Shown here piece by piece: positions 18,434 through 55,732 of a stretch of DNA of 64,000 nucleotides. The stretch covers positions 1 through 64,000 of the forward strand of contig NZ_AUHZ01000005.1 in NCBI RefSeq assembly GCF_000423445.1. The letters are read 5' to 3'. Each line of letters starts with the position of its first letter. Position 1 is the stretch's first letter. Source of the stretch: Acidipropionibacterium thoenii DSM 20276. Its GTDB lineage: Bacteria; Actinomycetota; Actinomycetes; Propionibacteriales; Propionibacteriaceae. Under the pieces are notes generated by a model. It did not search any database and was not told the DNA's origin. It saw only the letters and a list, made by a program, of their open reading frames with translations. The translations under genes and the position numbers were made by a program.

Positions 18434-18498
18434 GAGGACATCCTCCCGCATCCGGTCCGCCGCGTGTCGCCGGAGGGTCGGACGCCGCCCGACCCGGC

Positions 18499-20090: not shown

Positions 20091-20239
20091 AGGGTCTCCT
20101 TGGGTGGGCTCGGGTCCATATCTTGTCACGGTCCGGCCACCCCATTCGGCGTGCTCAGAACCCCGGTCCGAACACACATCAGCGATGAGCACTGGTGATG
20201 GTGCGGCGGGTCACCGGTACCCTCCTGAGGGTGACGGTG

Positions 20240-21322
20240 ATGGGGATCGATCTGGGCGGCACGAGCACGCTCGCCGAGCTGGCCGACGACTGCGGGGCGG
20301 TGCTCGGGCGCGGTGCCGCCGAGGGGGCGAACCTGAGATCGGCCGGCGGCGGGATCGCCGGGGCGGCGGCGGCTGTCCGGCGCTCTGCCGAGCTGGCCCT
20401 GACCGTGGCGGTGGCCGGCGGCCCCCGGCCTCCCGAGTCCTCGACGCCCACCGATCCCGCGCTCATCGACTCCCCGGACGCTGCCGACCCGACCGCTGTG
20501 CTCGAGCAGGCCGTCACCGGGAAACTCCTTCCCCAGGTCATCGTCATCTCGGCCTCGGGTGCCGGGGCGGCCCGTCACGATGAGGTGGCGGCAGCCTTCC
20601 GGGCGGCCCTGGCCGGGATCTGCGACCGGGTCCATGTCGAGAACGACCTGTCGGCGGCCTTCCGATCGGCCAGCTCCGGGGGCGACGGCTACCTGCTGCT
20701 GTCGGGAACCGGGGCGGTGGCCGGCCGCTACCGAGGAGGGATCCTCGAGCGCCGTGCCGATGGGCTCGGCTGGATCCTCGGCGACACCGGATCGGGGCTG
20801 TGGATCGGCTGGCAGGGTCTTCGTGCCGTCGCCGCCGATCTGGATCGACGCGGCCCGCACACCGAGTTGACCGCTCCGATGGTGGCATCCCTGGAGGTGC
20901 AGCCGGTGACCGGCGACCCCTGCCAGGACTTGGTGCGTCGGGTCGACGAGCTGGCCCCCGCCCAGATGGGCGGTCTGGCGCCGCTGGTGCTGGCGGCTGC
21001 GGCGACCGATGCGGTCGCCGGCCGGATTGCGGAGGCGGCCGCGGAGGCGCTGATCACCAGCCTCGACGCGGTCGTCGCCGACTCCGGGCCAGGACGCAGC
21101 GCGGACCGTCCGGACTCGGCACCCGAGGGCCTCGGCGTGGAGGGGGCGGGCGACGTCCCCCGCGAGGTGGTGCTGGCCGGCGGGGTGCTGGCCCACCAGA
21201 CCCCGGTGCGCGCCGCCGTGCTGGCCGAACTGGGGCGGCGTGGCGGATGGCGGGCCGTCACCGCCGCCGACCCGGTCGTCGGCGCCCTGCGGATCGCCCA
21301 GGACCTCCTCGACGCCGACTGA
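20240..21322 (+). CDS. BadF/BadG-type ATPase, probable amino-sugar kinase
   Basis: 360 residues from the ATG at 20240 (GAGGG eight bases upstream). The ASKHA fold shows the phosphate-1 motif GIDLGGTST, then ENDLSAAF, LLSGTGAVAGRY, GLGWILGDTGSG and LAGGVL. Related proteins phosphorylate GlcNAc, and MurK of clostridia phosphorylates both MurNAc and GlcNAc. Divergent placement next to murQ suggests it makes MurNAc-6-phosphate, the MurQ substrate, from free MurNAc; this is inference. No MurP-type phosphotransferase gene is seen nearby. Confidence 0.8.
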   Translation: MGIDLGGTSTLAELADDCGAVLGRGAAEGANLRSAGGGIAGAAAAVRRSAELALTVAVAGGPRPPESSTPTDPALIDSPDAADPTAVLEQAVTGKLLPQVIVISASGAGAARHDEVAAAFRAALAGICDRVHVENDLSAAFRSASSGGDGYLLLSGTGAVAGRYRGGILERRADGLGWILGDTGSGLWIGWQGLRAVAADLDRRGPHTELTAPMVASLEVQPVTGDPCQDLVRRVDELAPAQMGGLAPLVLAAAATDAVAGRIAEAAAEALITSLDAVVADSGPGRSADRPDSAPEGLGVEGAGDVPREVVLAGGVLAHQTPVRAAVLAELGRRGGWRAVTAADPVVGALRIAQDLLDAD

Positions 21323-21481
21323 GACCACCCTCGGAGCCGCCTCCCGCCGGCCACCGGCGTCCCCAACTCGGGAGTAGGTGCTCCGCCGTCACCACGGCCG
21401 CCCTAGTCTGGTGCCACGGCCGGGTTCACCGGCGCCCGGGATCGGTAGGACAACCCGCGGGGACCAGGGAGGATTACGTAC

Positions 21482-35639: not shown

Positions 35640-35683
35640 CCGGCCGGGCCCGATGGCGACTCAACGCCATCGGGCCCGGCCGG
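35640..35683. terminator. Perfect 19-bp hairpin between convergent operons
   Basis: 35640-35658 pairs with 35665-35683 without mismatch around the loop ACTCAA. It lies after the sigM operon and before the opposing glpK stop, so it can serve both. Confidence 0.85.
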
Positions 35684-41196: not shown

Positions 41197-41799
41197 ATGA
41201 ACATCACCGTCATCGGTGCCACCGGCATGGTCGGTTCGAAGGTCGTCGCCGAGGCGCTGGCCCGCGGCCATCAGGTCACCGCGGTCACCCGCTCGGGCAC
41301 GCCGGTCCAGGGAGCCACCGCACTGGCCGCGGAGCTGTCGGACACCCCGACCGTCACCAACCTCGTCAACTCCGCCGATGCCACCGTCATCGCGGTACCC
41401 ACCGACCGCACCGGTGGATCGGCCGAGCCGGTGATCAACGCCCACCGCGATCTCATCGCCGCCGCCCCGACGGGGCGTCTGCTGGTGGTCGGAGGGGCCG
41501 GATCCCTGCTCATCGACGGGGTTCCGCTCAAGGACAGCCCGGACTTCCCGGCCGCCTACAAGAGCGAGTCCGAGGCCTTCAGCACCGTGCTTGACCTCTA
41601 CCGGGCCTCCCAGGGGCTGGACTGGACGCTGATCTCCCCGGCCCCCCAGGTCGCCCCCGGCGATGCGGCGCAGAACTACACCGTGGCAGCCGACTCGCCG
41701 GCAGGCGACTTCGTCAGCTCCGGCACCTTCGCCGTGGCGATCCTCGACGAGCTGGAGAGGCCTGCCCACCGCGGACAGCGGTTCACCGTCGCCCAGTGA
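41197..41799 (+). CDS. NAD(P)-binding atypical short-chain reductase, NmrA-like
   Basis: 200 residues with an AAGGAGGAG site before the ATG. The Rossmann motif is ITVIGATGMVGSKVVAEALARG at the start and LLVVGGAGSLL near 92. It resembles small NAD(P)H-binding proteins of the NmrA/SDR-a5 group (COG2910), some of which sense redox state. There is no catalytic Tyr-x-x-x-Lys. Substrate unknown. It ends 20 bases before the palindromic repeat at 41820. Confidence 0.85.
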   Translation: MNITVIGATGMVGSKVVAEALARGHQVTAVTRSGTPVQGATALAAELSDTPTVTNLVNSADATVIAVPTDRTGGSAEPVINAHRDLIAAAPTGRLLVVGGAGSLLIDGVPLKDSPDFPAAYKSESEAFSTVLDLYRASQGLDWTLISPAPQVAPGDAAQNYTVAADSPAGDFVSSGTFAVAILDELERPAHRGQRFTVAQ

Positions 41800-41819
41800 G
41801 GCCGCCGCCCCGATGAGCC

Positions 41820-41895
41820 TGCGCAGATCACTCCGCAGACGGGGGTATCAGCAGCTCAGGCTGCATGGACCCCCGTCTGCGGAGTGATCTGCGCA
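41820..41895. repeat. Palindromic repeat, copy 1
   Basis: A perfect 27-bp inverted repeat (41820-41846 with 41869-41895) around a 22-base loop that itself holds GCAGC-TCAG-GCTGC. The arm begins TGCGCAGATCACTCCGCAGA. A second copy with the same arm sequence and loop length is at 53972-54049. This copy lies between convergent stops and could double as a terminator. Confidence 0.9.
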
Positions 41896-41899
41896 TCCG

Positions 41900-42898
41900 T
41901 CACCCCCAACAGGCCAACTTCTGACGTGATCTGAAGCTGCGGAACTTTCCGGAGACCGGATCCGTGAAGGACAACTCATGGGCCTGGAGCTGGAGCGGCC
42001 TGGTGAAGTCGTCGACCGCGGTGTCCAGCAGCTCGGGGTAAAAGGGGTCGTTGAGGATGGGGGCGCCCAACCGGTTGAAGTGCAGCCGGATCTGGTGGGT
42101 CTTGCCGGTCAGGGGTGTGGCCTCGTAGAGCCCCAGATCCCCGCGCCGCTCCAGCAGCCGGACCCGGGTCCGGGCGTTGGGTGCGGCGCCGGGCACCTCA
42201 TGGGCCTGGATCACCCCGCGTTCCTTGACGATGCGGCTGGCCACCTCGATCCCCTCCGGTGGCAGATCGAGGGCCTCAGCGACGACCCGGTAGCTCTTGT
42301 GCACCAGGTGGTGCTCGAAGAGTTCCTGGTAGGGGCGACGCCACTGGCGCTGACAGGTGAGCAGCAGGACCCCGGCGGTGACCCGGTCCAGCCGGTGGGC
42401 GACCGTCAGCTCCGGCATGCCGAGCTCGGTGCGCAACCTGACCACCACCGACTCCAGGACGTGGGACCCGCGGGGAATCGAGGACAGGAAGTGGGGCTTG
42501 TCGGCGACCAGGATCCGGTCATCCCGGTACAGGGTGCCGATCGGGAAGGGTACCGGGGTCTCGACCGGCAGGTCGCGGTGGAAGTAGATGAAGGTCTGGG
42601 CGGTGAAGGGGGTCTGCGGGGTGATCGGCACACCGGTCAGGTCGACGAAGCGCCCCTCGGCCACCATCTCGTCGATCCGCGGCTGACCGATCCGTGGCAG
42701 CTTCCAGGTCAGGAACTGGCGCATGGTGAGCCACGGGGCGGCGCCGGTCATCGCCGTCGCGCCTCGGCCGGCCGCTGCCGAGATGTCGTCGGCACTGGCC
42801 GCCAACCGGCGGCACTCACCCTGATCGGGGGTGCGCACCCAGGCCGACTCCAGGCCGTGACGCTGGGGCAGTGGGGAGCGCGGGGGCATGCCGGTCAC
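41900..42898 (-). CDS. RNA pseudouridine synthase, RluA family
   Basis: 332 residues. The catalytic Asp lies in AHRLDRVTAGVLLL, the RluA-family signature (HRLD), near 170. IYFHRDLPVETPVPFPIGTLYRDDRILVADKPHFL and GKTHQIRLHFNRLGAP are further conserved parts. It isomerises specific uridines in rRNA or tRNA. The first 60 residues are variable. The target RNA cannot be told from sequence. Its stop is five bases beyond the palindromic repeat. Confidence 0.92.
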   Translation of the reverse strand: MTGMPPRSPLPQRHGLESAWVRTPDQGECRRLAASADDISAAAGRGATAMTGAAPWLTMRQFLTWKLPRIGQPRIDEMVAEGRFVDLTGVPITPQTPFTAQTFIYFHRDLPVETPVPFPIGTLYRDDRILVADKPHFLSSIPRGSHVLESVVVRLRTELGMPELTVAHRLDRVTAGVLLLTCQRQWRRPYQELFEHHLVHKSYRVVAEALDLPPEGIEVASRIVKERGVIQAHEVPGAAPNARTRVRLLERRGDLGLYEATPLTGKTHQIRLHFNRLGAPILNDPFYPELLDTAVDDFTRPLQLQAHELSFTDPVSGKFRSFRSRQKLACWG

Positions 42899-42982
42899 CC
42901 TATCCGCGCCGCCTGCGGCCGGCTGCGATGGTCTGGGCAGCGTCCTCTACTATCGGGAGGTCCCCGTCTTGAGAGGTTTTCC

Positions 42983-43309
42983 ATGAGCCAGGTCATCGAG
43001 GTCACCGACGAGACCTTCGCGTCGGTGGTCATGAGCTCGGCGAAACCCGTACTGGTCGACTACTGGGCCGACTGGTGCATGCCGTGCAAGCAGCTCTCCC
43101 CCCTGATCGCCGAGCTGTCGGACAGTCACGGCGATCGGATGACATTCACGACCCTGGACACCAACGCCAATCAGCGCACCGCGGCCGATCAGCAGATCCT
43201 CTCGCTGCCCACGATCCAGGTGTGGCAGGACGGACGGCTGGTCCGGTCACTGCAGGGCGGCAGGTCCAGACGAGCACTACTCAAGGCCCTCGACGATTTC
43301 ATCGGATGA
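42983..43309 (+). CDS. trxA: Thioredoxin with WCMPC active site
   Basis: 108 residues, the usual thioredoxin length, with GAGAGG before the ATG. The fold is complete (VLVDYWADWC, DTNANQRTAADQQILSLPTIQVW with the cis-proline). The active site is WCMPC (31-35), with Met in place of the usual Gly, which should alter redox potential. It reduces protein disulfides using thioredoxin reductase, but no trxB gene is next to it, unlike the related mycobacterial locus. Confidence 0.95.
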   Translation: MSQVIEVTDETFASVVMSSAKPVLVDYWADWCMPCKQLSPLIAELSDSHGDRMTFTTLDTNANQRTAADQQILSLPTIQVWQDGRLVRSLQGGRSRRALLKALDDFIG

Positions 43310-43316
43310 GCCTGCG

Positions 43317-44108
43317 ATGAGCGATGACGACCAGATGAGCCGACACCACCGCGGGCCGGCGCCCAGACGGGCAGCCCCGCCCGACGGCGAGGAGACCCCG
43401 GCCGAGCAGAGGACGCCGGGCAGCACGGCCTCCAGCGGCCCACTCCCCCACCGGGCGGGCTCCCCGAGCACCCCCGCCAGCAGCCCCCACGGCCAGGCCG
43501 CGACCGGTCAGGTCGACGACCAGCTCACCAGCATCCCCCGCCCTCCCCGGCGAGGTCGCCCGAGTCGGGCCGCCGATGACCCCGATCCCGCACCCTCCCA
43601 CAAGACCATGCTGATCGGCACCATCATCGCCCTGGTGGTGGTCACCATCGTCGGTGTCGCGGTCTACGCCATCAACTCCATCCAGCCGGCCGGGCCCTCG
43701 AGCACCCCGACCGCCACCTCGACCTGGAAGATGGAGCTGCCGGTGCAGATCGGGGCCTACACCCGCGACCCGAACGCCACCGACTCCCCCTCCACCCAGG
43801 CGGGCACCACGACCACCTCGGCGACCTATGCCACCAAGGGTCAGGACGCCGTCGTGGTCCTGATGAGCCGGCCCCAGACCGATCTCAAGGCCTTCATGGA
43901 TGACGCCGGGATGAACTCGGTGAGCGAGCAGCAGCTCTCGGACAAGTCCGGCAGTGCGCAGTGCGGCATCGACCCCGACCACAACGACACCGGCTGCGTG
44001 GTGCTCCAGGAGAACACCGCTGTGCTGGTGCTGGCGCTGCTCAACCAGTCGCGCCAGGATCTGGCGGATCTGGCCCAGCAGGTGGCCCGGCAGACCGCAG
44101 GCCAGTGA
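43317..44108 (+). CDS. Single-helix membrane protein with exported domain, unknown
   Basis: 263 residues starting seven bases after trxA, probably in the same operon. The N-terminal 95 residues are a disordered Pro/Ser/Arg-rich cytoplasmic region. One helix (about 98-122, MLIGTIIALVVVTIVGVAVY) precedes an exported domain (about 135-263) with two Cys (AQCGIDPDHNDTGCVVL) that may form a disulfide. No family recognised. Thioredoxin upstream and the paired Cys could be related, but this is speculation. Confidence 0.75.
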   Translation: MSDDDQMSRHHRGPAPRRAAPPDGEETPAEQRTPGSTASSGPLPHRAGSPSTPASSPHGQAATGQVDDQLTSIPRPPRRGRPSRAADDPDPAPSHKTMLIGTIIALVVVTIVGVAVYAINSIQPAGPSSTPTATSTWKMELPVQIGAYTRDPNATDSPSTQAGTTTTSATYATKGQDAVVVLMSRPQTDLKAFMDDAGMNSVSEQQLSDKSGSAQCGIDPDHNDTGCVVLQENTAVLVLALLNQSRQDLADLAQQVARQTAGQ

Positions 44109-44316
44109 CCCTGGCCGCAGCTGGCATGACGCCGTGCCGGCGCCCCGAGCAGGTCGCCCCCGCGGCGTCGGCGGCCGGCAGGAGGGCCAGGCATCACCGC
44201 CGACACCAGCACCGGGAATGACATTCGGCGGGCACGGGCGCACAATGGGCGAAGTGTTGCACCGGGCCCCCACCCGGGCTGGGGAAGATCACACACCAGA
44301 GCATCAAGAGGTCGTC

Positions 44317-44754
44317 ATGCCGTCAGCCACCAAGAAGGTCACCGTGTTCCGCAGGGGCGAGGGCCGATACGTCGCCACCAACGCCCGCGGCGGTCAGGTA
44401 CGACTCGGGAACGGAGCCGACGACGACTTCACCCCGGTGGAGCTGCTGCTGGCGGCCATCGGAGGCTGCTCCTCGGTCGATGTCGACAACGTCACCAGCC
44501 GTCGTGACGAACCCGAGCAGTTCGAGGTGGTCGTCAGCGGCGCTCGGATCGTCGACGAGGCCGGCGGCAACCGGCTGGACCCGGTCACCCTGGACTTCGC
44601 CGTCCACTTCAAGGACACCGAGGAGGGCCGCGAGGCGGCCGGTCTGGTCGAGCGACTGGTCAAGTTGTCACGCGACAAGGAGTGCACGGTGGCGCGCACC
44701 GTGTCGGCCGACACCCAGGTGGTCTTCAAGGTGGACGGTCAGCCCCTCGACTGA
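44317..44754 (+). CDS. OsmC-family peroxide-reducing protein
   Basis: 145 residues from the ATG at 44317. OsmC/Ohr fold with the two conserved cysteines: Cys51 in AAIGGCSSVDVDNV and a second near 120 in RDKECTVARTV. Members reduce organic hydroperoxides with thiol electrons. A typical YxxN/RGG segment (VATNARGGQVRLG) is present. It follows a 208-base gap in which no gene was seen. Physiological substrate and reductant unknown. Confidence 0.9.
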   Translation: MPSATKKVTVFRRGEGRYVATNARGGQVRLGNGADDDFTPVELLLAAIGGCSSVDVDNVTSRRDEPEQFEVVVSGARIVDEAGGNRLDPVTLDFAVHFKDTEEGREAAGLVERLVKLSRDKECTVARTVSADTQVVFKVDGQPLD

Positions 44755-44851
44755 GCGCTGACCCCCCGGCTGCGGGTCGCCGGCGTCGCCATCGCGGTCG
44801 GTCCCGGGCCCACCCACGGTGGCTCGGATCCCCAGGATGCCGGGAATGCCG

Positions 44852-45694
44852 TCAGGCCAGCGCCGTGCCGCGGAACAGGGTGGTGGTGTTGCCGCCCACC
44901 CAGACCGTCCCGTCATCGTCGGGAGTGATCGAGATCCGCCCGGTGCGGCCGAGCCTGGTGCCCTGGGAGACTGTGAAGGGCCCGGAGACCTCTCCGGTGC
45001 GCACCAGCCACTGGCCCACCGATGCGTTCATCGACCCGCACACCGGATCCTCCGCCACGCCGACCCCCGGGGCGAAGGTCCGCATCTCGAATGCCGTCTC
45101 CGAGCCCTGCGGGTAGGCGCCGATCGCGCCCACCATGGCATCGGGGATCGCTGACAGATCGGGCTCGAGCTCGAGCACCTGTTGTGCTGTGGGCAGCCGC
45201 AGCACCGCCCAGCCGGGTCCGTTGTCGACCCACTGGTGGGCGACCACCTGGGATGAGTCGATGCCGAATGCGGCCTCGATCCTCGAGAGGAGGTCCGGTT
45301 CGAGAGGGCCGGTGTGCGTTGTCGGCGGGGCGGCGAAGGACAGCACCCCGCCGTCACGCCGGATCGGGATCAACCCGGCCGTGCACTGCTGCACGACCAG
45401 CTCCGGATCGCGGGGGGATCCACCACTCTCCAGCCAGGCGTGCGCTGAGCCCAGGGTGGGGTGTCCGGCGAATGGCACCTCGCCCCCCGGTGTGAAGATC
45501 CGCAGGCGGTAGTCGGCCTCGGTGCTGGTCGCAGGCAGCACGAAGGTGGTCTCCGAGAGATGCGTCCATCGCGCCATCTGCTGCATGTCGGTGTCCGATA
45601 TCCCCTGGCCGTCGAGGACCACCGCGAGGGGGTTGCCGCGGTATGCGACAGCGGAGAAGACATCGACCTGGGCGAACGGGCGGGAACGTGGCAT
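44852..45694 (-). CDS. PhzF-family isomerase/epimerase-like protein
   Basis: 280 residues. The two-lobed diaminopimelate-epimerase-like fold shows VFSAVAYRGNPLAVVLD, WTHLSETTFVLPA (the conserved acidic residue), VPFAGHPTLGSAHAWL and EDPVCGSMNASVGQWL. PhzF isomerises a phenazine precursor; most relatives have unknown substrates. No other phenazine gene is present, so phenazine synthesis is not supported. It lies 73 bases after the efflux gene on the same strand and may belong to the TetR-controlled unit. Confidence 0.9.
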   Translation of the reverse strand: MPRSRPFAQVDVFSAVAYRGNPLAVVLDGQGISDTDMQQMARWTHLSETTFVLPATSTEADYRLRIFTPGGEVPFAGHPTLGSAHAWLESGGSPRDPELVVQQCTAGLIPIRRDGGVLSFAAPPTTHTGPLEPDLLSRIEAAFGIDSSQVVAHQWVDNGPGWAVLRLPTAQQVLELEPDLSAIPDAMVGAIGAYPQGSETAFEMRTFAPGVGVAEDPVCGSMNASVGQWLVRTGEVSGPFTVSQGTRLGRTGRISITPDDDGTVWVGGNTTTLFRGTALA

Positions 45695-45767
45695 CGCGGC
45701 GACCTTTCACAGAAGCGGTTCGGCAGCCATTCTGCAACTGGAGACACCGCGGCGGCACGGGGGACGC

Positions 45768-47309
45768 TCAGTGGACGGCGCGGGTGATGTCGTAGCGGCG
45801 CGGTACCAGGACGGTGACGCCGACCGCTGCCAGCGTCATGACCACGAAGCCGATCAGCCCGGTGTCCGCCAGGGCCGTCGTGAAGGCTCTGTCCGCGAGA
45901 GTCATCAGCTCCGGGGTGCCGGCGGCCCTGGCGATGTCCTCGGCCGCGCTGAGCGACTGCCCCGCGGACCGGACCTGCGCCAGGTCCAGGCCGGCCTGCG
46001 AGGCCAGCGAGGTGATCCTGGAGCTGTAGATCGCCGCAGCGGCACTCCCGAGAACGGCGATGCCCAGGACGCTGCCGAGCTCGTAACTGGTCTCCTCGAG
46101 GGCCGCGGCATGACCGGCCTTGGTCTGGGGCGTGCCGGAGATGATGAGCGCCGATCCGACGGCCAGTGATCCGGCGCCCGCGCCGAGCAGGATCATGGCG
46201 ACGACCATCCAGCCGTAGCTGATGGGCTGCGGGGCGAGATAGATGGTGAGGAAACCCATTCCGGTGACGCCGAGTTCGCCACCGAGCACGGCGCGTGCGC
46301 CGATCCGGGCCGCCAGACCGGGAGCCAGCGGCGAGGCGACCCCCACCGCCAGTACCGCGGGGAGCATGGCGAGACCGGCCTCGAGCGGGGATGCACCCTC
46401 CACGATCTGCAGCCACTGTGCAGACAGCAGCAACAGCGCAGACATCGCGAACATGAAGGTAGTGGCCGCCAGGATGCCTGCGGTGAAGGGCTTGCTGCGG
46501 AACAGGCCCAGATCCAGCATCGGGTTGTCGTGACGCAGGCACCGGCGGATGAACCAGGCGAGGATGCCGGTACCCGCCAGCAACGCGATCCAGGCCGGCT
46601 GATCTGTCACGCCGCGCTCGGCGAAGGTCGTGATGGCCCAGATGAGGGCGACCGTGCCGGTGATCGAGGCCAATGCCCCGGGCAGGTCCCACTGCGGGGG
46701 TGTGGGGCTACGGAACTCCGGGAGCAGCAGGGACCCGGCGACCAGCGCGACCCCCATCACCGGGATGTTGACGAGAAAGGCGGCGTGCCAGCTGCCGTGC
46801 TCCAGCAGGAATCCACCGAGAACGGGACCGATGGCCATCCCCACCGAGGAGGCGGCAGCCCAGATGCCGAGCGCGGTGGCGCGCTCCCTCGGGTCGGTGA
46901 ACACCACCCGGATCATGGACAGCGTGGTCGGCATGATCATCGCGCCACCGATGCCGAGCAGGGCGCGGATGGCGATCACCGCCGGCGCGCTGTCCGCGAG
47001 GACCACGAGCAGGGAGGCCGCCGCGAAGATCCCGTACCCGGTGAGCAGCACACTCCTGCGTCCGAGCCTGTCGGCGGCAGCGCTCATCGGCACCAGCAGG
47101 CCGGCGAGCACCAGCGAGTAGATGTCGACGATCCACAGCTGCTGGACCGAGGTCGCGTGAACATCGGCGGCCAGCTGCGGGAGAGCCACGTTGAGGATCG
47201 TCATGTCCATGCTGATCCCCGCCAGGCTCAGGCTCAGGACCGCCAGGGCCGCCCACCGACGCCATCTGCTGATCACCCGTGCGGGTTCCCCGGTGATCCC
47301 ACCCGTCAT
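45768..47309 (-). CDS. DHA2-family drug:H+ antiporter (MFS, 14 helices)
   Basis: 513 residues with about 14 helices, as in QacA/EmrB-type exporters. Motifs: DMTILNVALPQLAADVHA (helix 1), SAAADRLGRRSVLLTG (motif A loop), GPVLGGFLLEHGSWHAAFLVNIPV (motif C). It should export lipophilic drugs or metabolites. Its GTG or ATG start overlaps the TetR stop by four bases, so expression is tied to the repressor. Substrate unknown. Confidence 0.93.
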   Translation of the reverse strand: MTGGITGEPARVISRWRRWAALAVLSLSLAGISMDMTILNVALPQLAADVHATSVQQLWIVDIYSLVLAGLLVPMSAAADRLGRRSVLLTGYGIFAAASLLVVLADSAPAVIAIRALLGIGGAMIMPTTLSMIRVVFTDPRERATALGIWAAASSVGMAIGPVLGGFLLEHGSWHAAFLVNIPVMGVALVAGSLLLPEFRSPTPPQWDLPGALASITGTVALIWAITTFAERGVTDQPAWIALLAGTGILAWFIRRCLRHDNPMLDLGLFRSKPFTAGILAATTFMFAMSALLLLSAQWLQIVEGASPLEAGLAMLPAVLAVGVASPLAPGLAARIGARAVLGGELGVTGMGFLTIYLAPQPISYGWMVVAMILLGAGAGSLAVGSALIISGTPQTKAGHAAALEETSYELGSVLGIAVLGSAAAAIYSSRITSLASQAGLDLAQVRSAGQSLSAAEDIARAAGTPELMTLADRAFTTALADTGLIGFVVMTLAAVGVTVLVPRRYDITRAVH

Positions 47310-47878
47310 GCCCGATCACCCGCCTGGTGGAGAAGACCGGTCAGCGCGCCCTGGAGCGTGGCGACCTCGAGAGGAGTGCCGGTGAGGGTGGTCTGCATCG
47401 TCGCCCCATCGATGAAGACCGCGATACTGCGCGCCGATTCGGGACTGGTCCACTGCTCGGCGAGCGCGACGAAGCCCTGCACCCACATCAGCGCGATCGA
47501 CCGAAGGTCCTCGTGCTGCATCGCGGTGCTGTACAGCGCGGCATCGGCACGAATCTGATCCTCATCGGACAGGTACTCGTGCAACAGCTCGGCCAGCACA
47601 CGGGGGTCACCGCCGGAGGCCTTCACCCGCTCCGAGACCTCCGCGAGCTCATCGCAGACCCCTTCAGCCAGCTGGGTGATGGCGGCGGTGCGCAACTCAT
47701 GGAGCGAGGAGAAGTAGTAGGTCGTCGCGCCGAGCGGCACGCCGGCACGCTCGGCCACCACCCGATGGGTGAGGGCGCCGCTCTCCACCAGTACCGCGGC
47801 GGCGGCATCGACGATCGCACGCCGACGGGCCTGGGGGTCGCGTCTGCGCTGAGCCTTTCGGCTCGGGGGCTGGCTCAT
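47306..47878 (-). CDS. TetR-family transcriptional repressor
   Basis: 190 residues. The DNA-binding domain is at about 15-60 (RRRAIVDAAAAVLVESGALTHRVVAERAGVPLGATTYYF), with a helical ligand domain after it. It overlaps the efflux pump gene and has a 32-bp palindrome just upstream, so it probably represses itself and the pump until a ligand binds. The ligand is unknown. Confidence 0.93.
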   Translation of the reverse strand: MSQPPSRKAQRRRDPQARRRAIVDAAAAVLVESGALTHRVVAERAGVPLGATTYYFSSLHELRTAAITQLAEGVCDELAEVSERVKASGGDPRVLAELLHEYLSDEDQIRADAALYSTAMQHEDLRSIALMWVQGFVALAEQWTSPESARSIAVFIDGATMQTTLTGTPLEVATLQGALTGLLHQAGDRA

Positions 47879-47903
47879 CGGGTCTCCAGATCTCTCCGGG
47901 CTT

Positions 47904-47935
47904 CATGTACTAACGTACTAGTACGACAGTACATG
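47904..47935. promoter_or_regulatory. 32-bp palindrome, probable TetR operator
   Basis: The sequence reads CATGTACT-(2)-CGTACTAGTACG-(2)-AGTACATG: all but the two dinucleotides are self-complementary. It starts 25 bases before the tetR start. The repeated GTAC blocks are markedly AT-richer than the surroundings and could overlap the promoter. Confidence 0.8.
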
Positions 47936-47966
47936 ACGCCCCGAGGCGGGCATCCGCTGGTGACCT

Positions 47967-49241
47967 TCAGGGGCGGGCGAAGCGACGAGACCACCGCTGG
48001 GACCACCGCTGGAGCCGGGTGGTGGCCATGGTTCCGGAGAGCTGCTGGGCGATCTGGTAGCCGGCATCCCAGGCCTGCTGCTGGGTGAAGATCGGGTAGG
48101 GCGCGTAGATGATCCCTGGCGTCTCGGACGGCGTCACGGGTTCGAGGGTGGCCGGCTCAGGTTCGGTGAAGCTGGCGACGACATCCCAGTCGGTGGCGTC
48201 GGCGCGGTAGATCTCTGACAGGTCGGCGTAGAGAGTGGACTCCTCGATCGCGCTGTGGCCGAAGCTGGTGGCCACAATGAGGTGGTCCTGTTCGGCGTAT
48301 CCGTCGGAGATGTTGGAGACGACGGCGGTGTTCGCAACGCGGCCAGGCTCGGCCCACCCCAGATGGAGAGCGGAACTGTCAGTGGGACAGACTGCGGCCC
48401 GAAGCCAGATGGTGTGCCTGAGCATCGGGGCCGGCCGCGCGAGCACAGTCTCATGAGGGCTGTCCGCAGCTGGGTGCGCTGGGGTTGCGGGAACCTGGCC
48501 CCGCAGTCGAAGCGCCTCACAGTGCCCGGCGGCCACCACGACCACGCGACCCCAGATGTCGGCATCGCTGGTGTGGACGCAGTCCTCATCTGGACCGGTC
48601 TCCTTGATGTCCAGCACGGTGGTCCCGAGGGTTGGTGGGATGCTCGACAGAACGGTGCGCAGAGTGAGGTACGGCCTGCCGGATCCCGCCCAGGGCAAGG
48701 ACTTCTCAGCCAGCCAGTCCAGGGCCAGATCGGCGACCGTGTTGAAACTCACCGACTGGTCCAGGCTCCCCAGCATCGAGGCCAGTGCCCCGTCGACGAC
48801 TCGGGCCCTGAACTCATCGTCTCGGGTGTCACCTGGCGGACGAGAGGGGCCAGCGGCCCGGTCCAGACGGACCTGTTGGTTCCACGGCAGGTCGGGATGC
48901 CGCACACCTGACATCCAGGAGGCGAGCTGGGGAGAGTCGATACCAACGACCGGCAGTGGATCGGCGTCGATGAATCGTGGGCCCTCGGGGCCTCGGACCA
49001 CCAGGCCATCGGCGAGGGGGAAGTACTGGCTGTAGTTGATGATGCGAGTCTTGGGTCGGCCGCCGAAGACCGGTTCGAACGTCTGGTTGCAGGCAAATCC
49101 GTCGATCCGGTAGTTGCGGATTCGCCCGCCCAGCTCAGACTGAGCCTCGATCAGCTGGACCGGCAGGCCGTACACCATCAGGTGCAATGCCGTTGACAGT
49201 CCGGTGAGGCCACCACCGACAACCACGCAGTCGCTGTACAT
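47967..49241 (-). CDS. FAD-dependent amine-oxidase/phytoene-desaturase-like oxidoreductase
   Basis: 424 residues from the ATG at 49241 (GAAGG six bases upstream). The FAD-binding motif is CVVVGGGLTGLSTALHLMVYG, followed by the acidic residue and GGRIRNYRIDGFACNQ, the second part of the amine-oxidase/phytoene-desaturase dinucleotide signature. YAEQDHLIVATSFG and the C-terminal APYPIFTQQQAWDAGYQIA occupy the place of the family's C-terminal FAD contact. Substrate unknown; no carotenoid gene is nearby. It lies 172 bases downstream of a two-component system on the same strand. Confidence 0.83.
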   Translation of the reverse strand: MYSDCVVVGGGLTGLSTALHLMVYGLPVQLIEAQSELGGRIRNYRIDGFACNQTFEPVFGGRPKTRIINYSQYFPLADGLVVRGPEGPRFIDADPLPVVGIDSPQLASWMSGVRHPDLPWNQQVRLDRAAGPSRPPGDTRDDEFRARVVDGALASMLGSLDQSVSFNTVADLALDWLAEKSLPWAGSGRPYLTLRTVLSSIPPTLGTTVLDIKETGPDEDCVHTSDADIWGRVVVVAAGHCEALRLRGQVPATPAHPAADSPHETVLARPAPMLRHTIWLRAAVCPTDSSALHLGWAEPGRVANTAVVSNISDGYAEQDHLIVATSFGHSAIEESTLYADLSEIYRADATDWDVVASFTEPEPATLEPVTPSETPGIIYAPYPIFTQQQAWDAGYQIAQQLSGTMATTRLQRWSQRWSRRFARP

Positions 49242-49413
49242 GAGCATCCTTCAGGTCGCGGTGCACCATCGGTTCGAACAGGTCCGGGCGAGCATATCCA
49301 CAGCCGTCTCGACATCTGGCGGCGGCGTGCCTCTCCTTCAGGTGAGCACCTCGATCATCGGAGACGAGAGACACCGGTCCCGAGGACCGCATCGAAGGTG
49401 TCCGCGGGCAACC

Positions 49414-51354
49414 TCAGCCCGCGCCGGGGGCTCCTTCATCGGCAGGGCGATCCGGTGCTGTCGAGGTCAGGATCACCAGGACGTCTGAGCCGCCCGCAAT
49501 GATCTGCGCGTCCACCCCATCGGGTGTCGCGAGCCCTTCCAGGACGCCGTCGGAGTCGTCACCGCTGCCGACCGTGGTTGACCCGACGCCCCCCGACAGG
49601 GCCACGCTCGGCTGAGCGAAGTGCGACCCCGGCGCCCACCGGCAGGTCAACCTCGACCCCGCCCCGGCGGCAGCAGCCAGCTTCACGCACACCTCCCGGA
49701 AGGCCTCGGCGAGCCCGGCCCACTCACCATCCACCGGCTCGCGGCCTGCCACCACCACCTTGGCACCCCGCTCCCGCGCGCTGCGGAACTCGCGCCTCAT
49801 GGCGTCATCCATCACCAACGGGGCGACCAGCAGATCCCGCATGGAGACCTCCAGCAGTGCGCACTCCCGACGCAGTTCGGCGTCGATCGGCACCCCGCCG
49901 GCCAGTCTCTCCAGTATCAGCAGCGGCGCCCCCTCGATGGTGGCCAGACGCCGTTCGGTCTCGAGCCGCACGGCCTCGGCGTGGGCCTGTCTCCGGATCG
50001 CCTGGAAAGTCCTCTCGCGACGGTCGTGGACGGTCGCCAGAGCGGCGTCCATGCTCTTGGCGGCCCACGCCGCGGCCATCGACAGCACGACCGGGAAGGT
50101 GAAGGAGCTGGCCCGGCTGGCCATCAGCCACCAGAACCCCCAGCCCCTCATCAGAGCCGCCCCGGCAGTGACCACCGGCAGGCTGAGCCCGGCCACCACG
50201 CACCACCGCCGGTTCCTGGTCCGCCAGGCCAGCGGGGCGAAGACCCCCAGGCCGAAGCCGATGAACCACTCCTGCCACTCCACCTCCGCGGTGAGCCGCA
50301 GGTTGGCCAGCATGATGATCTGGGCGAACATCGTCGCGGTCACCAGCAGCGTGCACTTCCACCAGTCGAGCCGGGGCCAGAGCATCGCCCCGAAGATCGC
50401 CAGTACCAGGATGGCCAGGCCCAGATCCTCGATATGCCAGTTGATCACATAGGGACTGCACGGCACCCCCATCGACAGTGAGATCACCAGGGAGAGGATG
50501 AAGAAACCCATCATCATCCGGAAAGCCGGCAGCTGCCCGATCAGCACCTTCGAGGTGCGCGGTTGCTGCCAGTACATCGTCACCGTGGTGCCGTGCCCCG
50601 GGGAGCTGATCACCTCGGCGCGGCCCCCGCAGCCAGCCATCGTCCGACGCACCGAACCGGACAGGCCATGGTGTCTCTCGGACACATCGCCCGGGTTGAA
50701 GCCGCAGCCCTCGTCGCGGATCGTCAGCTCGGCGGCGTCGGTGCCGAAATGCCCCCACACCCCCACCTGGCTGACGCCGGAGTGCCGGGCGACGTTGGTG
50801 AGGGCCTCCCCGGCAGCACGCTTGTAGCACTCGACGATCGGGCCGATCGGGATCCCGCTGATCGCGATGTCGGCGTCCAGTCCGAGGACCGCCACCTTCT
50901 GGCGGACCTGCTCGACGAAGCCGTCGGAGGACCTGCGGGCACCCGGGTCGCGCAGCGCGCCCAGGGCATCGCGAGCCAGGATCCGGGCCGGCTCCTCGAC
51001 CTGCGGCACGACGGCGCGGGCAGCGGTGCCCAGGGCATTGAGGACCTTGTCGTGGATGAGCCCGTCCCACCGGTTGGACTCCGCCAGGGCCTCCTCGGAC
51101 TCGATGAGGGCCCGCTCGGAGCGCCGACTGCTGCGGTCGGCGTACTGGGCCATCCGCACGGTGTCCACGACGGCCGCCCAGCCCATCGTCGCCACCATCC
51201 CGATGGCGCCGTAGTAGGCGGAGTTCACCCAGCTCAGCGAGCCCAGCTGGGCGGTTCCGGCCAGGATCGTGCCGCCGATGGTCACGGTCAGCACGATGTC
51301 GAGGGCCGCGAACGGCCAGTACAGGCAGGTCCACGCGGCTGCCGCGCCCAGCAC
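49414..51354 (-). CDS. Sensor histidine kinase core, separated from its N-terminus by an in-frame TGA
   Basis: 646 residues if started at the GTG at 51354. Helices near 5-35 and 43-60 are followed by a dimerisation segment with phospho-acceptor His in GLIHDKVLNALG near 101 (HisKA_3 type) and an ATPase domain (GEALTNVARHSG, RDEGCGFNPGD, HGLSGSVRRTMAGCGG). After it come five or so more helices (about 275-440), a coiled segment (RRQAHAEAVRLETERRLATIE) and a final domain of unknown type. This order, catalytic core in the middle with a second membrane module behind it, is unusual. The frame continues upstream through a TGA at 51400-51402 into further helices. Confidence 0.8.
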   Translation of the reverse strand: MLGAAAAWTCLYWPFAALDIVLTVTIGGTILAGTAQLGSLSWVNSAYYGAIGMVATMGWAAVVDTVRMAQYADRSSRRSERALIESEEALAESNRWDGLIHDKVLNALGTAARAVVPQVEEPARILARDALGALRDPGARRSSDGFVEQVRQKVAVLGLDADIAISGIPIGPIVECYKRAAGEALTNVARHSGVSQVGVWGHFGTDAAELTIRDEGCGFNPGDVSERHHGLSGSVRRTMAGCGGRAEVISSPGHGTTVTMYWQQPRTSKVLIGQLPAFRMMMGFFILSLVISLSMGVPCSPYVINWHIEDLGLAILVLAIFGAMLWPRLDWWKCTLLVTATMFAQIIMLANLRLTAEVEWQEWFIGFGLGVFAPLAWRTRNRRWCVVAGLSLPVVTAGAALMRGWGFWWLMASRASSFTFPVVLSMAAAWAAKSMDAALATVHDRRERTFQAIRRQAHAEAVRLETERRLATIEGAPLLILERLAGGVPIDAELRRECALLEVSMRDLLVAPLVMDDAMRREFRSARERGAKVVVAGREPVDGEWAGLAEAFREVCVKLAAAAGAGSRLTCRWAPGSHFAQPSVALSGGVGSTTVGSGDDSDGVLEGLATPDGVDAQIIAGGSDVLVILTSTAPDRPADEGAPGAG

Positions 51355-51399
51355 CGCCGAGTGAGCCAGCGGAGGTGCCAGCTGACCAGGGGTGACCTG

Positions 51400-51816
51400 T
51401 CACCACAGTGCGGCCACGATGACCCCGAGGAGGCACAGGGCGGTGTGCACGACCAGCGCCGGACAGGCCGGACGGCGTCTGGCCACGCAGACCGTGATCC
51501 AGCCGGAGGTGAGCGCGACCGCCGGCAGCAGGATCGCGATGAGCAGGGAGTCCCGCGGGGTCATCTGGTGGGTCTGCCACTGGTGCACCGAGGCGCTTGT
51601 GCTCAGCGCCAGACCGAGCAGCGCGGCGAAGGCGCCGATGAAGTCGGCGGTGCGATCCATCCGGCGGCCCGCGCTGGGGGCCAACAGGCGGGCGAGACGC
51701 CGTGCGAGCCGGCCTGGGGGGCGTCCGCCAGGTGCGCCGTGGAGGGCGGACTCGTTGGAGGTCGGGCTGTCGTCGGACATCGGCCAGTTGTTCAGCATGC
51801 TCCCCGTGTTCAGCAT
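51400..51816 (-). pseudogene. N-terminal membrane part of the sensor kinase, ended by TGA
   Basis: 138 residues from the ATG at 51816. A basic, Pro/Gly-rich start is followed by three helices (about 70-90, 97-118 and 121-138). The frame stops at TGA (51402-51400) directly after ALW inside a helix and then continues, in the same frame, with QVTPGQLAPPLAHSAVLGAA and more helices of the kinase. One ancestral gene is the simplest reading: 51816-49414, 800 codons. It could be a real nonsense mutation, an assembly error, or two proteins acting together. Confidence 0.65.
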
Positions 51817-51827
51817 GGCAGGGGACC

Positions 51828-52595
51828 TCAGTGTCGCTGCGGACCCTCGCAGTAGCCGTCCTCCACCGCGCGGATGTAGAGATCGGTGCGAGTGGGGGCG
51901 GGGCGCCCGGCGTCGATGTACTTGCTCCGGATCCGTTTCAGCCAGGTGCCCACGGTGACCTTCTGGACACCCATCTTTCGGGCGATGGTAGAGGTCTTCA
52001 GACCGGCGGCGAAGAGGGTGAGTGCCTGCTTCTCCCGGTCGGCGAGATGGGGCATGACCCAGCCCTCGTCGGCGATCGCCCGGGCCCACTCCGGAGAGAG
52101 CCAGGGTTCGCCGTCTGCGACGGTCGTGATGGCCTCGGCCAGGGTGTCGGCGTCGGCGTTCTTCTCGAGAATCCCTGCCGCCCCGGCGGCGAAGCAGGCC
52201 TGCACGACGCTGGGACGGGCCTCCTGGGAGAACATCAGCACCGGGGATCCGAGCTCCCCGAGAATCCGGGCCACGTTCTGGTGGGGCGCGGAGTCATCAT
52301 TGAGTCGGATATCGAGCAGCACGACGTCCGGTTCAATCTTGGTGGCGATCAGGTCGTCAACGGTGGCCGCGCAGGCATAGTCGGCAATGGTGATACGGGT
52401 CTCCAGGACGGCACGAATGCCTTCCAGAAGGATCGGGACGTCATCAACCGCGGCTAGGATGATGGGTCGTGCCGCTATCGGGCCATCGTCGAATGAACTG
52501 GCGTCATCGCGAGTTCCTGACCGGCCCTGTACACGGTCACCGGCACCCTCGTCGTCCGCTGACGGTTCGGATGCGCCGCTTATCAGGCTGCTCAC
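51828..52595 (-). CDS. NarL/LuxR-family response regulator
   Basis: 255 residues. About 45 variable residues precede the receiver domain, which has VDDVP near 50 and the phosphorylatable Asp in PDVVLLDIRLND near 94. The DNA-binding domain is in the C-terminus (LADREKQALTLFAAGLKTSTIARKMGVQ, TWLKRIRSKY). It pairs with the kinase immediately downstream (11-base gap) and may control the FAD oxidoreductase gene. Signal unknown. Confidence 0.9.
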   Translation of the reverse strand: MSSLISGASEPSADDEGAGDRVQGRSGTRDDASSFDDGPIAARPIILAAVDDVPILLEGIRAVLETRITIADYACAATVDDLIATKIEPDVVLLDIRLNDDSAPHQNVARILGELGSPVLMFSQEARPSVVQACFAAGAAGILEKNADADTLAEAITTVADGEPWLSPEWARAIADEGWVMPHLADREKQALTLFAAGLKTSTIARKMGVQKVTVGTWLKRIRSKYIDAGRPAPTRTDLYIRAVEDGYCEGPQRH

Positions 52596-53072
52596 AGGGT
52601 CATGCTGACACGATTTTCAGTCGCTCATGATGAGTGAGCGTTCGAAGCCACAACCATGATCCTCGGACTAGGGGTGACGCACCGGGTTGTCCCCCAAACT
52701 GGGGACATAATTCCTGGCTCAACCCAGCTGCCGGGGCTCATCGCATTCAATCGGCACACCACCGCCATGGCCTCGACACCCCATCATGGCGACCAACTGC
52801 GCCTCGCGAGACTCTTCCGGTCCATATCCGCCAGATCGGGAAATGGCACGGACATTTTCGGCCTCTCACAATCCGAGGGATGGCGAGGGGCCCAATCCGA
52901 GCCCTCATCGAGCGTCGGCTGCCATCCTGATATCGACGCAGTGTCTGCCTCGAGCCACACCCCCCGTACCGGCCCGAGGATCTGGGATCACGGCGATATG
53001 TCGACAATCCTCGCTGATGACCATGCTGGCACCGTGTCCGTGCTTCCTCGCAGCCGCTACTGCCCGATCGCC
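52596..53072. other. Gene-free region upstream of the NarL-type regulator
   Basis: 477 bases without a convincing gene. It is less GC-rich than its neighbours. It contains CGCTCA-(7)-TGAGCG at 52622-52640, 27 bases before the regulator start, and GTCCCC-CAAACT-GGGGAC at 52689-52706, either of which could bind a regulator or end transcription. A reading frame at 52656-53126 shows no family features and overlaps the next gene. Confidence 0.5.
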
Positions 53073-53852
53073 TCAGCTCCGCTGGCCACCACGGACCTCG
53101 CTGTACTGGCCGCGGGAACCAGGTAGTCCAGACTCAACCTTCCGCTGCACGGTGCTGGGCTCGGAGGCCGGCTCATGTGACCAGCCTCGCATCCAGTCGA
53201 GGAATCGGTGGCCCAGATCCTCGGCCGCCACCGTGTGGCGCAGGTCGAGCTGCATCCGGCGGACCGGCGCGGCGTCCAGCGGGTCGACCAGGCGAAAACC
53301 GACTGACTCCAGCCATGGCTCCGGGGCGATCCGAAGGTCCCGGCAGTCACCCGGCCGCCCGCACTCCACCCCGCCGGCCTCGATCGCCGGAACGCTGCCG
53401 TGGAGCCGACCGGCCAGAAAGCCGGTGAGTTGGCGGCCCACCGGTACGGAGTGGAAACGGTCCCGGCAGCTCGCTCCGGCGCGATGTCCGGTTGGTGACG
53501 CATCTGTCTGGGGGGGTACCTCCGCGACCCGTTGCGCGTGACTGTCGCCACCACATCCGGCCGCGGGCGCACACGCCACGACCACGACTGCGGCTCCCGA
53601 GGTTCTCGGCACCCGCCGCATCGGATGATCCGCAGGCAGCGCCTCCCCCGGTGTCACCAGGATGAAGGCGTAGCCGTCAGTGCAGCGCATACTCACCCCG
53701 GCCATCCCCCAGGTCACCAGCGCGGCCTCCATCCACCCCGGCATCGGTTCCCCGTGAGCCATCCCCCAGGAATGCGCCAGCACGTCGTCGGGGACACCGC
53801 GGAAGTGGGCCACCATGTCGCGGGTGATGGGCCGGAAGCGTCGAAGACTCAT
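53073..53852 (-). CDS. GNAT-like acetyltransferase, tentative
   Basis: 259 residues from the ATG at 53852. The first 95 residues (FRGVPDDVLAHSWGMAHGEPMP, WMEAALVTWGMAGVSM, GYAFILVTPGEALPADHPM) and the end (LESVGFRLVDPLDAAPVRRMQLDLRHTV) follow the pattern of an actinobacterial GNAT protein usually coded near parAB. The middle (CAPAAGCGGDSHAQRVAEVP) is longer and less regular than in relatives and the acetyl-CoA loop is poorly defined, so activity is doubtful. Confidence 0.5.
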   Translation of the reverse strand: MSLRRFRPITRDMVAHFRGVPDDVLAHSWGMAHGEPMPGWMEAALVTWGMAGVSMRCTDGYAFILVTPGEALPADHPMRRVPRTSGAAVVVVACAPAAGCGGDSHAQRVAEVPPQTDASPTGHRAGASCRDRFHSVPVGRQLTGFLAGRLHGSVPAIEAGGVECGRPGDCRDLRIAPEPWLESVGFRLVDPLDAAPVRRMQLDLRHTVAAEDLGHRFLDWMRGWSHEPASEPSTVQRKVESGLPGSRGQYSEVRGGQRS

Positions 53853-54157
53853 CGCGACCCCCAGCCCGCCAGTCCAGCCCGGGACCCTCCCGAACCCTGT
53901 CCCCATCCTGCCCCACAGTGCCATCCGCCGTCGCCGGGAACCCGAAAGGGCATCCGGGCCAGGGCCGAGGTGTGCGCAGATCACTCCGCAGACGGGGGTT
54001 CGTGCTCGCTGGGCTGCAGATACCCCCGTCTGGGGAGTGATCTGCGCACCTGAGCGAGGCCATCGACCTGCAGAACAGCCACCCGACGTGAGAAACCACA
54101 CACTTTTTTCGGTGTCATTCTATGAACCAGGCCGCATTCTGAGGCACAGTAGGCGGG
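53853..54157. other. Divergent promoter region containing the second palindromic repeat
   Basis: 305 bases between the divergent GNAT-like and aminotransferase genes. Apart from the palindrome at 53972-54049 I see no gene and no clear promoter element. Confidence 0.5.
53972..54049. repeat. Palindromic repeat, copy 2
   Basis: A 28-bp inverted repeat (53972-53999 with 54022-54049) with one mismatched pair and a 22-base loop. The left arm contains the same TGCGCAGATCACTCCGCAGA as copy 1. The loops differ but share length and GGCTGCA. Here it lies between divergent genes, so it is not simply a terminator. Confidence 0.9.
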
Positions 54158-55732
54158 GTGAGTATCACGAACCGACTCAGCCATGCCGCACCCGACCTCT
54201 CCCACCTCGTCGCCCGCGCCGGCGCCGAGGCCACCGAGGCCGCCGCGGCTACTGAGCCGGTCCGCGCCGGTTCGCAGCACCAGTCCCATTCCACCGAGGG
54301 CAGCACCTCCAGCACGGGCGAGCCCACCACCAGCAGCGAGCGCACTGACATGACCTCTCACACCCAGCACACCCAGCCCCAGACCCCCCGGCCCCACCGC
54401 TCCCCCGCCGAGGGCGAGCCCCAAGGCCGCCAGCACACCCGGGTCGACACCACTTTCGACCACTTCCACGACCTCTACGCCACCCGGACCCTGTCGATGA
54501 AGTCCTCCCCGGTGCGCGCCCTCTTCGCGGTCGCCAACCGCCCCGAGGTGGTCTCACTGGCCGGGGGTATGCCCAACATCTCCGACCTCCCGCTCGATGT
54601 CGTCGGCGACGCTCTCAAGCAGCTTGTCGAGACCCGCGGCGCCCAGGCCATGCAGTACGGCTCCGGTCAGGGCGAACCGGAGATCCGCGAGGGGATCTGC
54701 CGGGTGATGGCCGTCGAGGGGGTCCACGCGGATCCCGATGACGTCACCGTCACCTGCGGCTCCCAGCAGGCTCTGGACCTGGTCTCCCGGATCTTCTGCA
54801 ATCCGGGGGACGTCGTGATGGCCGAGTCCCCCAGTTACGTCGGCGCCCTCAACACCTTCGCCTCCTATCAGGCCGAGGTGATCCAGGTCGGGATGGACGA
54901 GGACGGCCTGGACCCCGAGGACCTGCGGGTCCAGGTGAGCGCGGCCCGCCGGGCCGGCAAGAAGGTCAAATTCCTCTACACGATCCCCAACCACTCGAAT
55001 CCCTCGGGGATCTCGCAGACCGTCGAACGACGTCATGCCCTGGTGGCGGAGGCCCGAAGACTCGACCTGCTGATCGTCGAGGACAACCCCTATGGACTGC
55101 TCAATCTCGACGGCGACCCACTGCCGACACTGCGGGAGATGTCTCCTGACAATGTCATCTACCTCGGATCCTTCTCCAAGACCTTCGCACCGGGTTTCCG
55201 GGTCGGCTGGGCCCTGGCGCCGGCCTTCGTGCGGGAGCGGCTGGTGCTGGCCCAGGAGTCGGCCACGCTGTGCCCTCCGGTCTTCAGCCAGTTCGCGGTG
55301 GCGACCTATCTGAAGAGCTGGGACTGGCGCAGGCAGGTCCGGGTCTTCATCGACATGTACCGGCAACGGCGCGACGCCATGCTCGAGGCCCTGGAGGAGC
55401 AGATGCCGGCCGGCACCACCTGGACCCACCCCTCGGGAGGATTCTTCGTCTGGGTGACGATGCCCGATGGGTTGGACTCCGCCGCGATGCTGCCGCGCGC
55501 GGTCACCGAGCTGGTGGCCTACACCCCCGGCACCGCGTTCTACTCCGACGGCCGCGGCCAGCAGAACATGCGGCTGTCCTTCTGCTACCCGACCCCCGAG
55601 CGGATCAAGCTCGGCGTCGAGAGGCTGGCCGCGGTGATGCGCCGGGAGTTGGAGATCCGCGAGACCTTCGGCGTGGGGCCGAGTGCCGCGGGCGGCGCGC
55701 GGGACTACGGCCCCGGGCCGAACTCGCTGTGA
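54158..55732 (+). CDS. PLP-dependent aminotransferase, class I/II
   Basis: 524 residues from the GTG at 54158; an ATG at 54350 would give 460 residues. The fold-type I enzyme shows VVSLAGGMPNISDLP, QYGSGQGEPEIREGI, VTCGSQQALDLV, FLYTIPNHSNPSGIS, VEDNPYG and the PLP-lysine in YLGSFSKTFAPGFRVGW. It resembles 2-aminoadipate/branched-chain aminotransferases of the LysN/MocR-core type but without the DNA-binding domain. The first 100 residues are low-complexity (Ala/Glu then His/Pro/Gln rich). It lies upstream of ddl; a role in D-amino-acid supply is conceivable. Confidence 0.88.
   Translation: MSITNRLSHAAPDLSHLVARAGAEATEAAAATEPVRAGSQHQSHSTEGSTSSTGEPTTSSERTDMTSHTQHTQPQTPRPHRSPAEGEPQGRQHTRVDTTFDHFHDLYATRTLSMKSSPVRALFAVANRPEVVSLAGGMPNISDLPLDVVGDALKQLVETRGAQAMQYGSGQGEPEIREGICRVMAVEGVHADPDDVTVTCGSQQALDLVSRIFCNPGDVVMAESPSYVGALNTFASYQAEVIQVGMDEDGLDPEDLRVQVSAARRAGKKVKFLYTIPNHSNPSGISQTVERRHALVAEARRLDLLIVEDNPYGLLNLDGDPLPTLREMSPDNVIYLGSFSKTFAPGFRVGWALAPAFVRERLVLAQESATLCPPVFSQFAVATYLKSWDWRRQVRVFIDMYRQRRDAMLEALEEQMPAGTTWTHPSGGFFVWVTMPDGLDSAAMLPRAVTELVAYTPGTAFYSDGRGQQNMRLSFCYPTPERIKLGVERLAAVMRRELEIRETFGVGPSAAGGARDYGPGPNSL

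Follow-up and report, generated by a model that had tools for sequence, protein, structure and literature searches.

A family of dispersed 76-bp palindromes in Acidipropionibacterium thoenii with related arm dialects across the genus

This analysis concerns two long palindromes in a 64,000-nt stretch of DNA (the window; positions 1 to 64,000 of contig NZ_AUHZ01000005.1) from Acidipropionibacterium thoenii DSM 20276, whose genome was analyzed as an assembly of 2.94 Mb in 45 contigs. The palindromes are copies of one 76-bp repeat, which we call F1. Copy 1 (41820–41895) lies in a convergent setting, where the stop codon of a plus-strand NAD(P)-binding (NmrA-like) gene (41197–41799, with an earlier start possible at 41059) comes 20 nt before the palindrome and a minus-strand RNA pseudouridylate synthase gene (41900–42898) ends 4 nt past it. 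Copy 2 (53973–54048, or 53972–54049 when one additional flanking G-C pair is counted) has a divergent setting, between a minus-strand conserved uncharacterized gene with its start at 53852 (53184–53852) and a plus-strand aminotransferase gene with its start at 54158 (54158–55732). The uncharacterized gene was recognized as a homologous stretch with 57% identity to an open reading frame (ORF) in the related genome G003 (see below); it was missed by codon scoring, and a Pfam search returned no match for it. The original prediction had placed the two palindromes at these sites and described one as convergent and the other as divergent, and the flanking genes agree with it.

Preservation of the repeat is greatest in its outermost 20 bp, TGCGCAGATCACTCCGCAGA. 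Copy 1 carries this consensus without mismatches in both its left arm (41820–41839, plus strand) and its right arm (41876–41895, minus strand). Copy 2 likewise has an exact left arm (53973–53992, plus strand), and its right arm (54029–54048, minus strand) has one mismatch, at position 16. Alignment and folds place a decayed upper stem at the apex of copy 1 (41848–41867), and alignment places the apex of copy 2 at 54001–54020. Both palindromes had been described as having a 22-base loop. This loop is not free, but is an apparent one that arises because the upper stem has decayed, as it frequently has among F1 copies. The best copy in the genome (C6:78624–78699) forms a 36-bp stem closed by a 4-nt loop.

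Computed folding energies for the two strands are −72.9 and −70.8 kcal/mol for copy 1 and −66.3 and −63.4 kcal/mol for copy 2, and the folds of both copies are 9.7 to 12.2 standard deviations lower than those of dinucleotide shuffles. Gapless-palindrome scores were 27 and 26 for the two copies, whereas two shuffled 20-kb stretches combined gave a single palindrome, with a score of 14. An Rfam 15 scan of positions 41700–42000, which covers copy 1, gave no match above the gathering threshold, with generic hairpin models (mostly for microRNAs) far below it, and membership of copy 1 in a known RNA family was set aside. The window also holds palindromes that do not belong to F1. One spans 52 bp (47894–47945). 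Another (35640–35683), with perfect 19-bp arms and a 6-nt loop, is flanked by convergent genes and has the look of an ordinary terminator.

The two window palindromes are part of a much larger collection. The shared 20-mer matches the A. thoenii genome 60 times with three or fewer mismatches, compared with no matches for a reversed-pattern control. A covariance model made from 29 copies finds 30 F1 loci with E-values of 6.5e-11 or better; these include all 29 of the copies used to build it, and the only new locus is C9:53597–53672. Five weaker matches all fall in one tandem array (C15:36037–36280; L050 1738–1981), in which the right half of F1 is repeated with a 42-bp period to give five successive right arms. 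Elsewhere, F1 arms are nearly always paired at 76 bp, with a single copy of 77 bp, and only two lack a partner (C12:39871 and C3:42613, the latter inside a gene). The genome also has palindromes of 32 to 56 bp, from which F1 differs in its constant length of 76 bp and in the conservation of its 20 outer bases. As had been predicted from the two window copies, the arms are conserved and the inner parts are looser. A TGCA...TGCA core is shared at the apex by 15 of 27 copies.

The two outer arms within a given copy resemble each other more closely than they resemble the arms of other copies. When the tandem-array copy is excluded, arms of the same copy match at a mean of 19.03 of 20 positions, compared with 17.90 when arms are permuted among copies, and none of 5000 permutations reaches the observed value. 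Identical outer arms are present in 13 of 29 copies, where 6.7 are expected.

Four other Acidipropionibacterium genomes were compared. Here they are designated G001, G002, G003 (the metagenome-assembled genome UW_MP_PROP1_1, 86% complete), and G004 (A. jensenii DSM 20535), with A. thoenii as G000. The F1 model gives matches in four of 57 genomes, each of them an Acidipropionibacterium, and in none of the 52 genomes outside the genus. The matches in the relatives are palindromes of about 68 to 81 bp that carry other arms, which we refer to as dialects. F2 (arm GGTCCCGATCACTCCCGA) occurs in G003, F3 (arm GGTGAACATTTCACTCGC) in G004 and G003, F4 (arm GACGAGAATCCCGCTCAACG) in G001 and G002, and F5 in G003, while F7 is a further arm type found at a single site in G001 and G002.

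Most of these dialects are related to one another. F1, F2, F3, and F5 resemble each other beyond what a pairing-preserving shuffle yields, with the shuffle exceeded in 94% of sampled F1-F2 pairs, 90% of F1-F3 pairs, and 100% of F2-F5 pairs. F1 and F3 share a mean of 35.4 identical bases of 76, compared with 19.9 for shuffled palindromes. The relationship of F4 is less clear, and F7, judged from two sequences, is related to F1 and F3 only. The apex motif of F1 is found in 4 of 31 F2, 7 of 36 F3, and 4 of 14 F4 elements, just slightly more often than in shuffles.

F3 copies are also present in the A. thoenii genome, on C21, C4, and C6. Two segments that carry those on C21 and C4 (C21, about 18468–23027, and C4:358–5424) are 96–99% identical to A. 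jensenii (G004:C13) instead of the usual 75–90%. Judged by this sequence identity, the segments are probably recent transfers, and their F3 copies were therefore not treated as inherited; this check covered the F3 copies on C21 and C4. Separately, a contig-end stretch (C23:1–402; L174 1–402) matches numerous G004 contig ends and three places in G002 at 99–100% identity, and is probably an insertion sequence common to several species. Additional long palindromes with other arms are present in G001 (L298 5719–5809; L291 833–886, 1045–1114, and 1522–1643), and about 800 bp of this genome contains three of them. A. thoenii has yet another type of palindrome (L054, around 640–960, and L267 9222–9333), which has arms resembling GTTGATCCAGTTTCTCC and adjoins an F1 copy, and a 72-bp palindrome resembling this type occurs in a different gap in G004 (L325). 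No description of these repeat families was found in the open-access literature searched, although papers on them may exist elsewhere; the RepRanger report (PMC12306157), in the portions available to us, gives palindrome counts for A. thoenii and describes no family.

Genomic placement bears on what the hairpins might do. Among the 30 F1 loci, 29 lie outside called coding sequence, so that the earlier suggestion of a REP- or MITE-like element (repetitive extragenic palindrome or miniature inverted-repeat transposable element) was right in outline, and the finding of further copies removes the first of the grounds on which it was to be abandoned. Nine loci are convergent, 17 codirectional, three divergent, and one within an ORF. 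Relative to the share of intergenic bases, the convergent and divergent counts both depart from expectation (p = 0.008 and p = 0.005, respectively). A pooled set, composed of F1 and 57 of 60 examined F2–F4 elements (two were dropped as undetermined and one as lying inside an ORF), favors gene 3′ ends. Convergent positions hold 28 of 86 copies compared with 33 of 215 gaps of at least 60 bp (p = 0.0014), and divergent positions hold 11 of 86 compared with 50 of 215 (p = 0.056). The background for these comparisons is made up of A. thoenii stretches partly picked around F1 sites, and some of the pooled F3 copies are clustered in one gap. In codirectional gaps the upstream stop codon is the closer one for 34 of 47 copies (p = 0.003). 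Pfam searches of 29 F1 neighbors found metabolism, transport, and cell-wall genes or gave no match, and no functional theme was found across these neighbors and the ORF that holds the coding copy.

The pooled bias is what would be expected if the palindromes were ordinary bidirectional terminators that have come to look alike through duplication and selection on their stems. Shorter, unrelated hairpins also occupy some of the homologous gaps in relatives, for example at C23:9667 (38 bp, in both G003 and G004) and at 41820 (60 bp, in G002). However, a TTTT run is present within 12 nt of none of 58 F1 ends, three copies are divergent and one lies in coding sequence, and the fixed length and conserved outer bases of F1 are unlike the 32- to 56-bp palindromes of the genome. 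We consider this explanation quite unlikely, and a plain intrinsic terminator was set aside for want of a T-run. The original argument that a plain terminator is insufficient stands for the three divergent copies and the coding one, but it does not extend to the pooled majority of copies, which are at gene 3′ ends, where an RNA role is likely.

The relation between dialects and sites was examined at eight F1 loci chosen solely by their position in A. thoenii, of which the window contains two and C19 and C23 three each. In G003, the homologous gap holds a family palindrome at five of these (41820; C19:12591, 22707, and 31911; C23:11068), and at C23:9667 there is one somewhere within an enlarged 3.2-kb gap. 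By comparison, 4 of 25 G003 gaps where A. thoenii has no F1 contain a palindrome of at least 70 bp, as counted by eye from a gene-pair table. At 41820 the gap holds F1 in A. thoenii and another dialect in G003. C23:11068 is occupied in all five species, by dialects that differ among them; it is the one such site in each of G001 and G002, where the remaining sites lack such a palindrome or had no homologous stretch examined. Immediately before the palindrome at C19:31911, a segment of about 56 bp is directly duplicated, as noted by eye (L052, about 840–960).

Two more sites, which carry useful information, were selected from a comparison of retrieved loci rather than by position. At C1:5468, just past a stop codon, F1 in A. 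thoenii corresponds to an F3-like palindrome in G004 as a gapless, base-for-base swap between conserved flanks. The G004 element is identical to its F1 counterpart at 45 of 76 positions, tied for the best among 28 F1 copies, and its closest match among 32 F3 elements is identical at 48 of 76. At C3:164423, where A. thoenii carries F1, the G004 palindrome is F3, and four palindromes are present in G003, two of them F3-like and two F5. The occurrence of species' own dialects sometimes at the same place suggests that such repeats have been overwritten while the species diverged.

The sole F1 locus within an ORF provides the sharpest case. A long ORF encoding cupredoxin-like and multicopper-oxidase domains contains this copy (C3:242899–242974; L055 1000–1075) in the linker preceding the cupredoxin domain. 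The A. jensenii homolog is 70.5% identical over 672 aligned positions, and in the same linker it carries an F3-type right arm (two differences from the search pattern) with a decayed left part. Two independent insertions into one coding linker are unlikely, although linkers are permissive, and this case suggests that a change of dialect can occur even under protein-coding constraint.

Shared sites could instead reflect independent insertion at hot spots, whereby each species would have a non-autonomous mobile element of its own with a preference for gene 3′ ends, and the same permissive places would have been re-used. This explanation would accommodate the limited number of places that gene 3′ ends provide, the many unshared sites, the presence of several families side by side in a single genome, and the copy in a coding linker. 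It is less easily reconciled with the swap at C1:5468, whose flanks are conserved up to the element, with the use of the same coding linker by two species, with the interrelatedness of the families, or with the lack of target duplications. On balance we regard it as possible but somewhat unlikely.

Flanking duplications of at least 2 bp accompany 3 of 29 F1 copies, where 3.5 are expected, and a classical MITE with target duplication was set aside on this count. No clean 76-bp empty site was seen at the sites compared; at C4:207847, the stretch missing from A. jensenii is about 210 bp long rather than 76. Pfam searches of the 29 F1 neighbors revealed no transposase, although no whole-genome transposase survey was made. 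With one F1 copy as the query, blastn matched none of 72,556 plasmid or 50,697 phage records, the exact F1 pattern has no match among viral contigs, and spread by plasmid or phage was set aside. A scan of a genome contig collection for the F1 pattern likewise gave no match, though records of the window itself or very close to it may have been omitted from that collection. The recent mobility that had been offered as one explanation for the conserved arms finds no support in the duplication, empty-site, and transposase results.

The Y1 transposase known as RAYT (REP-associated tyrosine transposase; PF01797) is absent from G000, G001, G003 (at its 86% completeness), and G004, with one match in G002, in a search whose control genomes include five positives. 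The F1 copies might nevertheless be a classical population of REPINs (REP doublets forming hairpins) copied by a RAYT that has since been lost or goes unrecognized. The doublet-hairpin architecture, the dispersed intergenic copies, and the dominant sequence with variants are all in keeping with this idea, as are the REPIN counts of tens to hundreds and the persistence following RAYT loss that are described in the part of PMC8049555 we consulted. The distribution of PF01797 makes it very unlikely in our judgment.

The most economical reading of these observations is an inherited palindrome superfamily in which the arm dialect shifts from one lineage to another and supplants older copies, with genuine gains and losses of copies besides. 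More fully, the window palindromes would be two of 30 copies of the A. thoenii dialect of a genus-wide REP/REPIN-like superfamily of about 68 to 81 bp. Copies would spread through a trans-acting activity other than a Y1/RAYT transposase, and hairpin-templated (quasipalindrome) correction is the probable means by which the arms of each copy would stay matched. A dialect newly rising in a lineage would replace a part of the older copies in place and take new 3′ intergenic sites as well. To judge from their positions, most copies would probably be transcribed as strong hairpins at the 3′ ends of transcripts, and would there limit read-through or shield the end of the mRNA. We give this joint reading roughly an even chance of being correct. 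Template-switch correction at quasipalindromes is reported, in the portion of PMC7202029 available to us, to perfect imperfect inverted repeats; it can explain the matched arms within a copy, but would not account for agreement between copies. A stricter formulation, in which the hairpin dialect of the genus undergoes concerted evolution as a non-RAYT trans-acting activity overwrites dispersed palindromes in place, so that homologous sites, even in a coding linker, would pass from the arm sequence of one species to that of another with length and position preserved, is advanced tentatively.

Several observations weigh against the joint reading. Site sharing is partial, and many sites are unshared. 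The G003 gaps homologous to 53973 and C23:18579 contain no family palindrome, and G004 has a full palindrome at just one of the eight position-picked sites (C23:11068), none at six, and at C19:22707 a half copy that retains an F1 arm; this and C12:39871 in A. thoenii are among the few single arms that could be decayed remnants. At C19:12591, C19:31911, C23:9667, and C23:11068, half of the sites picked by position, the alignment is one-sided and site identity therefore approximate. Several families coexist in G003, and homogenization is therefore incomplete. Covariation is weak by column shuffling, as 148 of 500 shuffles reach at least the observed pairing and 27 of 500 at least the covariation score. 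When F1 alone is set against gap counts there is no significant 3′ bias (convergent, p = 0.06–0.13; 11 of 17 codirectional copies nearer the stop codon, p = 0.33). Even so, the terminator-only, classical MITE, uptake-signal, and RAYT-REPIN explanations fit worse.

REP-like palindromes are common, and F1 raises the question of how tens of like, dispersed copies are kept up without a recognizable transposase. The five species use different dialects and have certain sites in common, and they offer a natural system in which to separate in-place replacement from insertion and loss.

Among known systems, MITEs are also short, non-coding, dispersed, and bounded by inverted repeats, but F1 lacks a target duplication, and no partner transposase or insertion sequence with F1 ends was found among the arm matches and the 29 neighbors. 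Intrinsic terminators resemble F1 in that many F1 copies are likewise strong hairpins close to stop codons; F1 differs in having no T-tract, a far longer stem, and divergent and coding positions as well. REPs as a rule occupy transcribed locations at 3′ ends. Like F1, the REPs and bacterial interspersed mosaic elements of Escherichia coli are intergenic palindromes, but F1 is a single unit of constant 76-bp length whose stem extends over 36 bp. The REPs of E. coli measure 25 to 35 bp and are usually clustered, according to the part of PMC5553809 consulted.

DNA uptake sequences (DUS) of the Neisseriaceae have species dialects and often form inverted-repeat pairs at terminators (PMC3630211, as far as available to us). 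This parallel invites the view that F1 is a selected recognition signal of the DUS kind. Such a signal would be expected to be over-represented as single copies, many of them in genes, but F1 arms are almost never single, as just two of the 60 matches lack a partner outside the tandem array, and there are just about 30 sites. An uptake signal was accordingly set aside and seems to us extremely improbable.

The REPIN-RAYT systems differ from F1 in that four of five Acidipropionibacterium species have no RAYT, for which reason F1 is not classed with them and a classical RAYT-REPIN origin was set aside, and in that other species' arms stand at some homologous sites. In form the likeness is close. 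F1 consists of two inverted units that make a hairpin and, like REPINs, is multi-copy and mostly extragenic. It is also a short, dispersed doublet with tens of copies, a dominant sequence accompanied by variants, and ends that are conserved around a looser middle.

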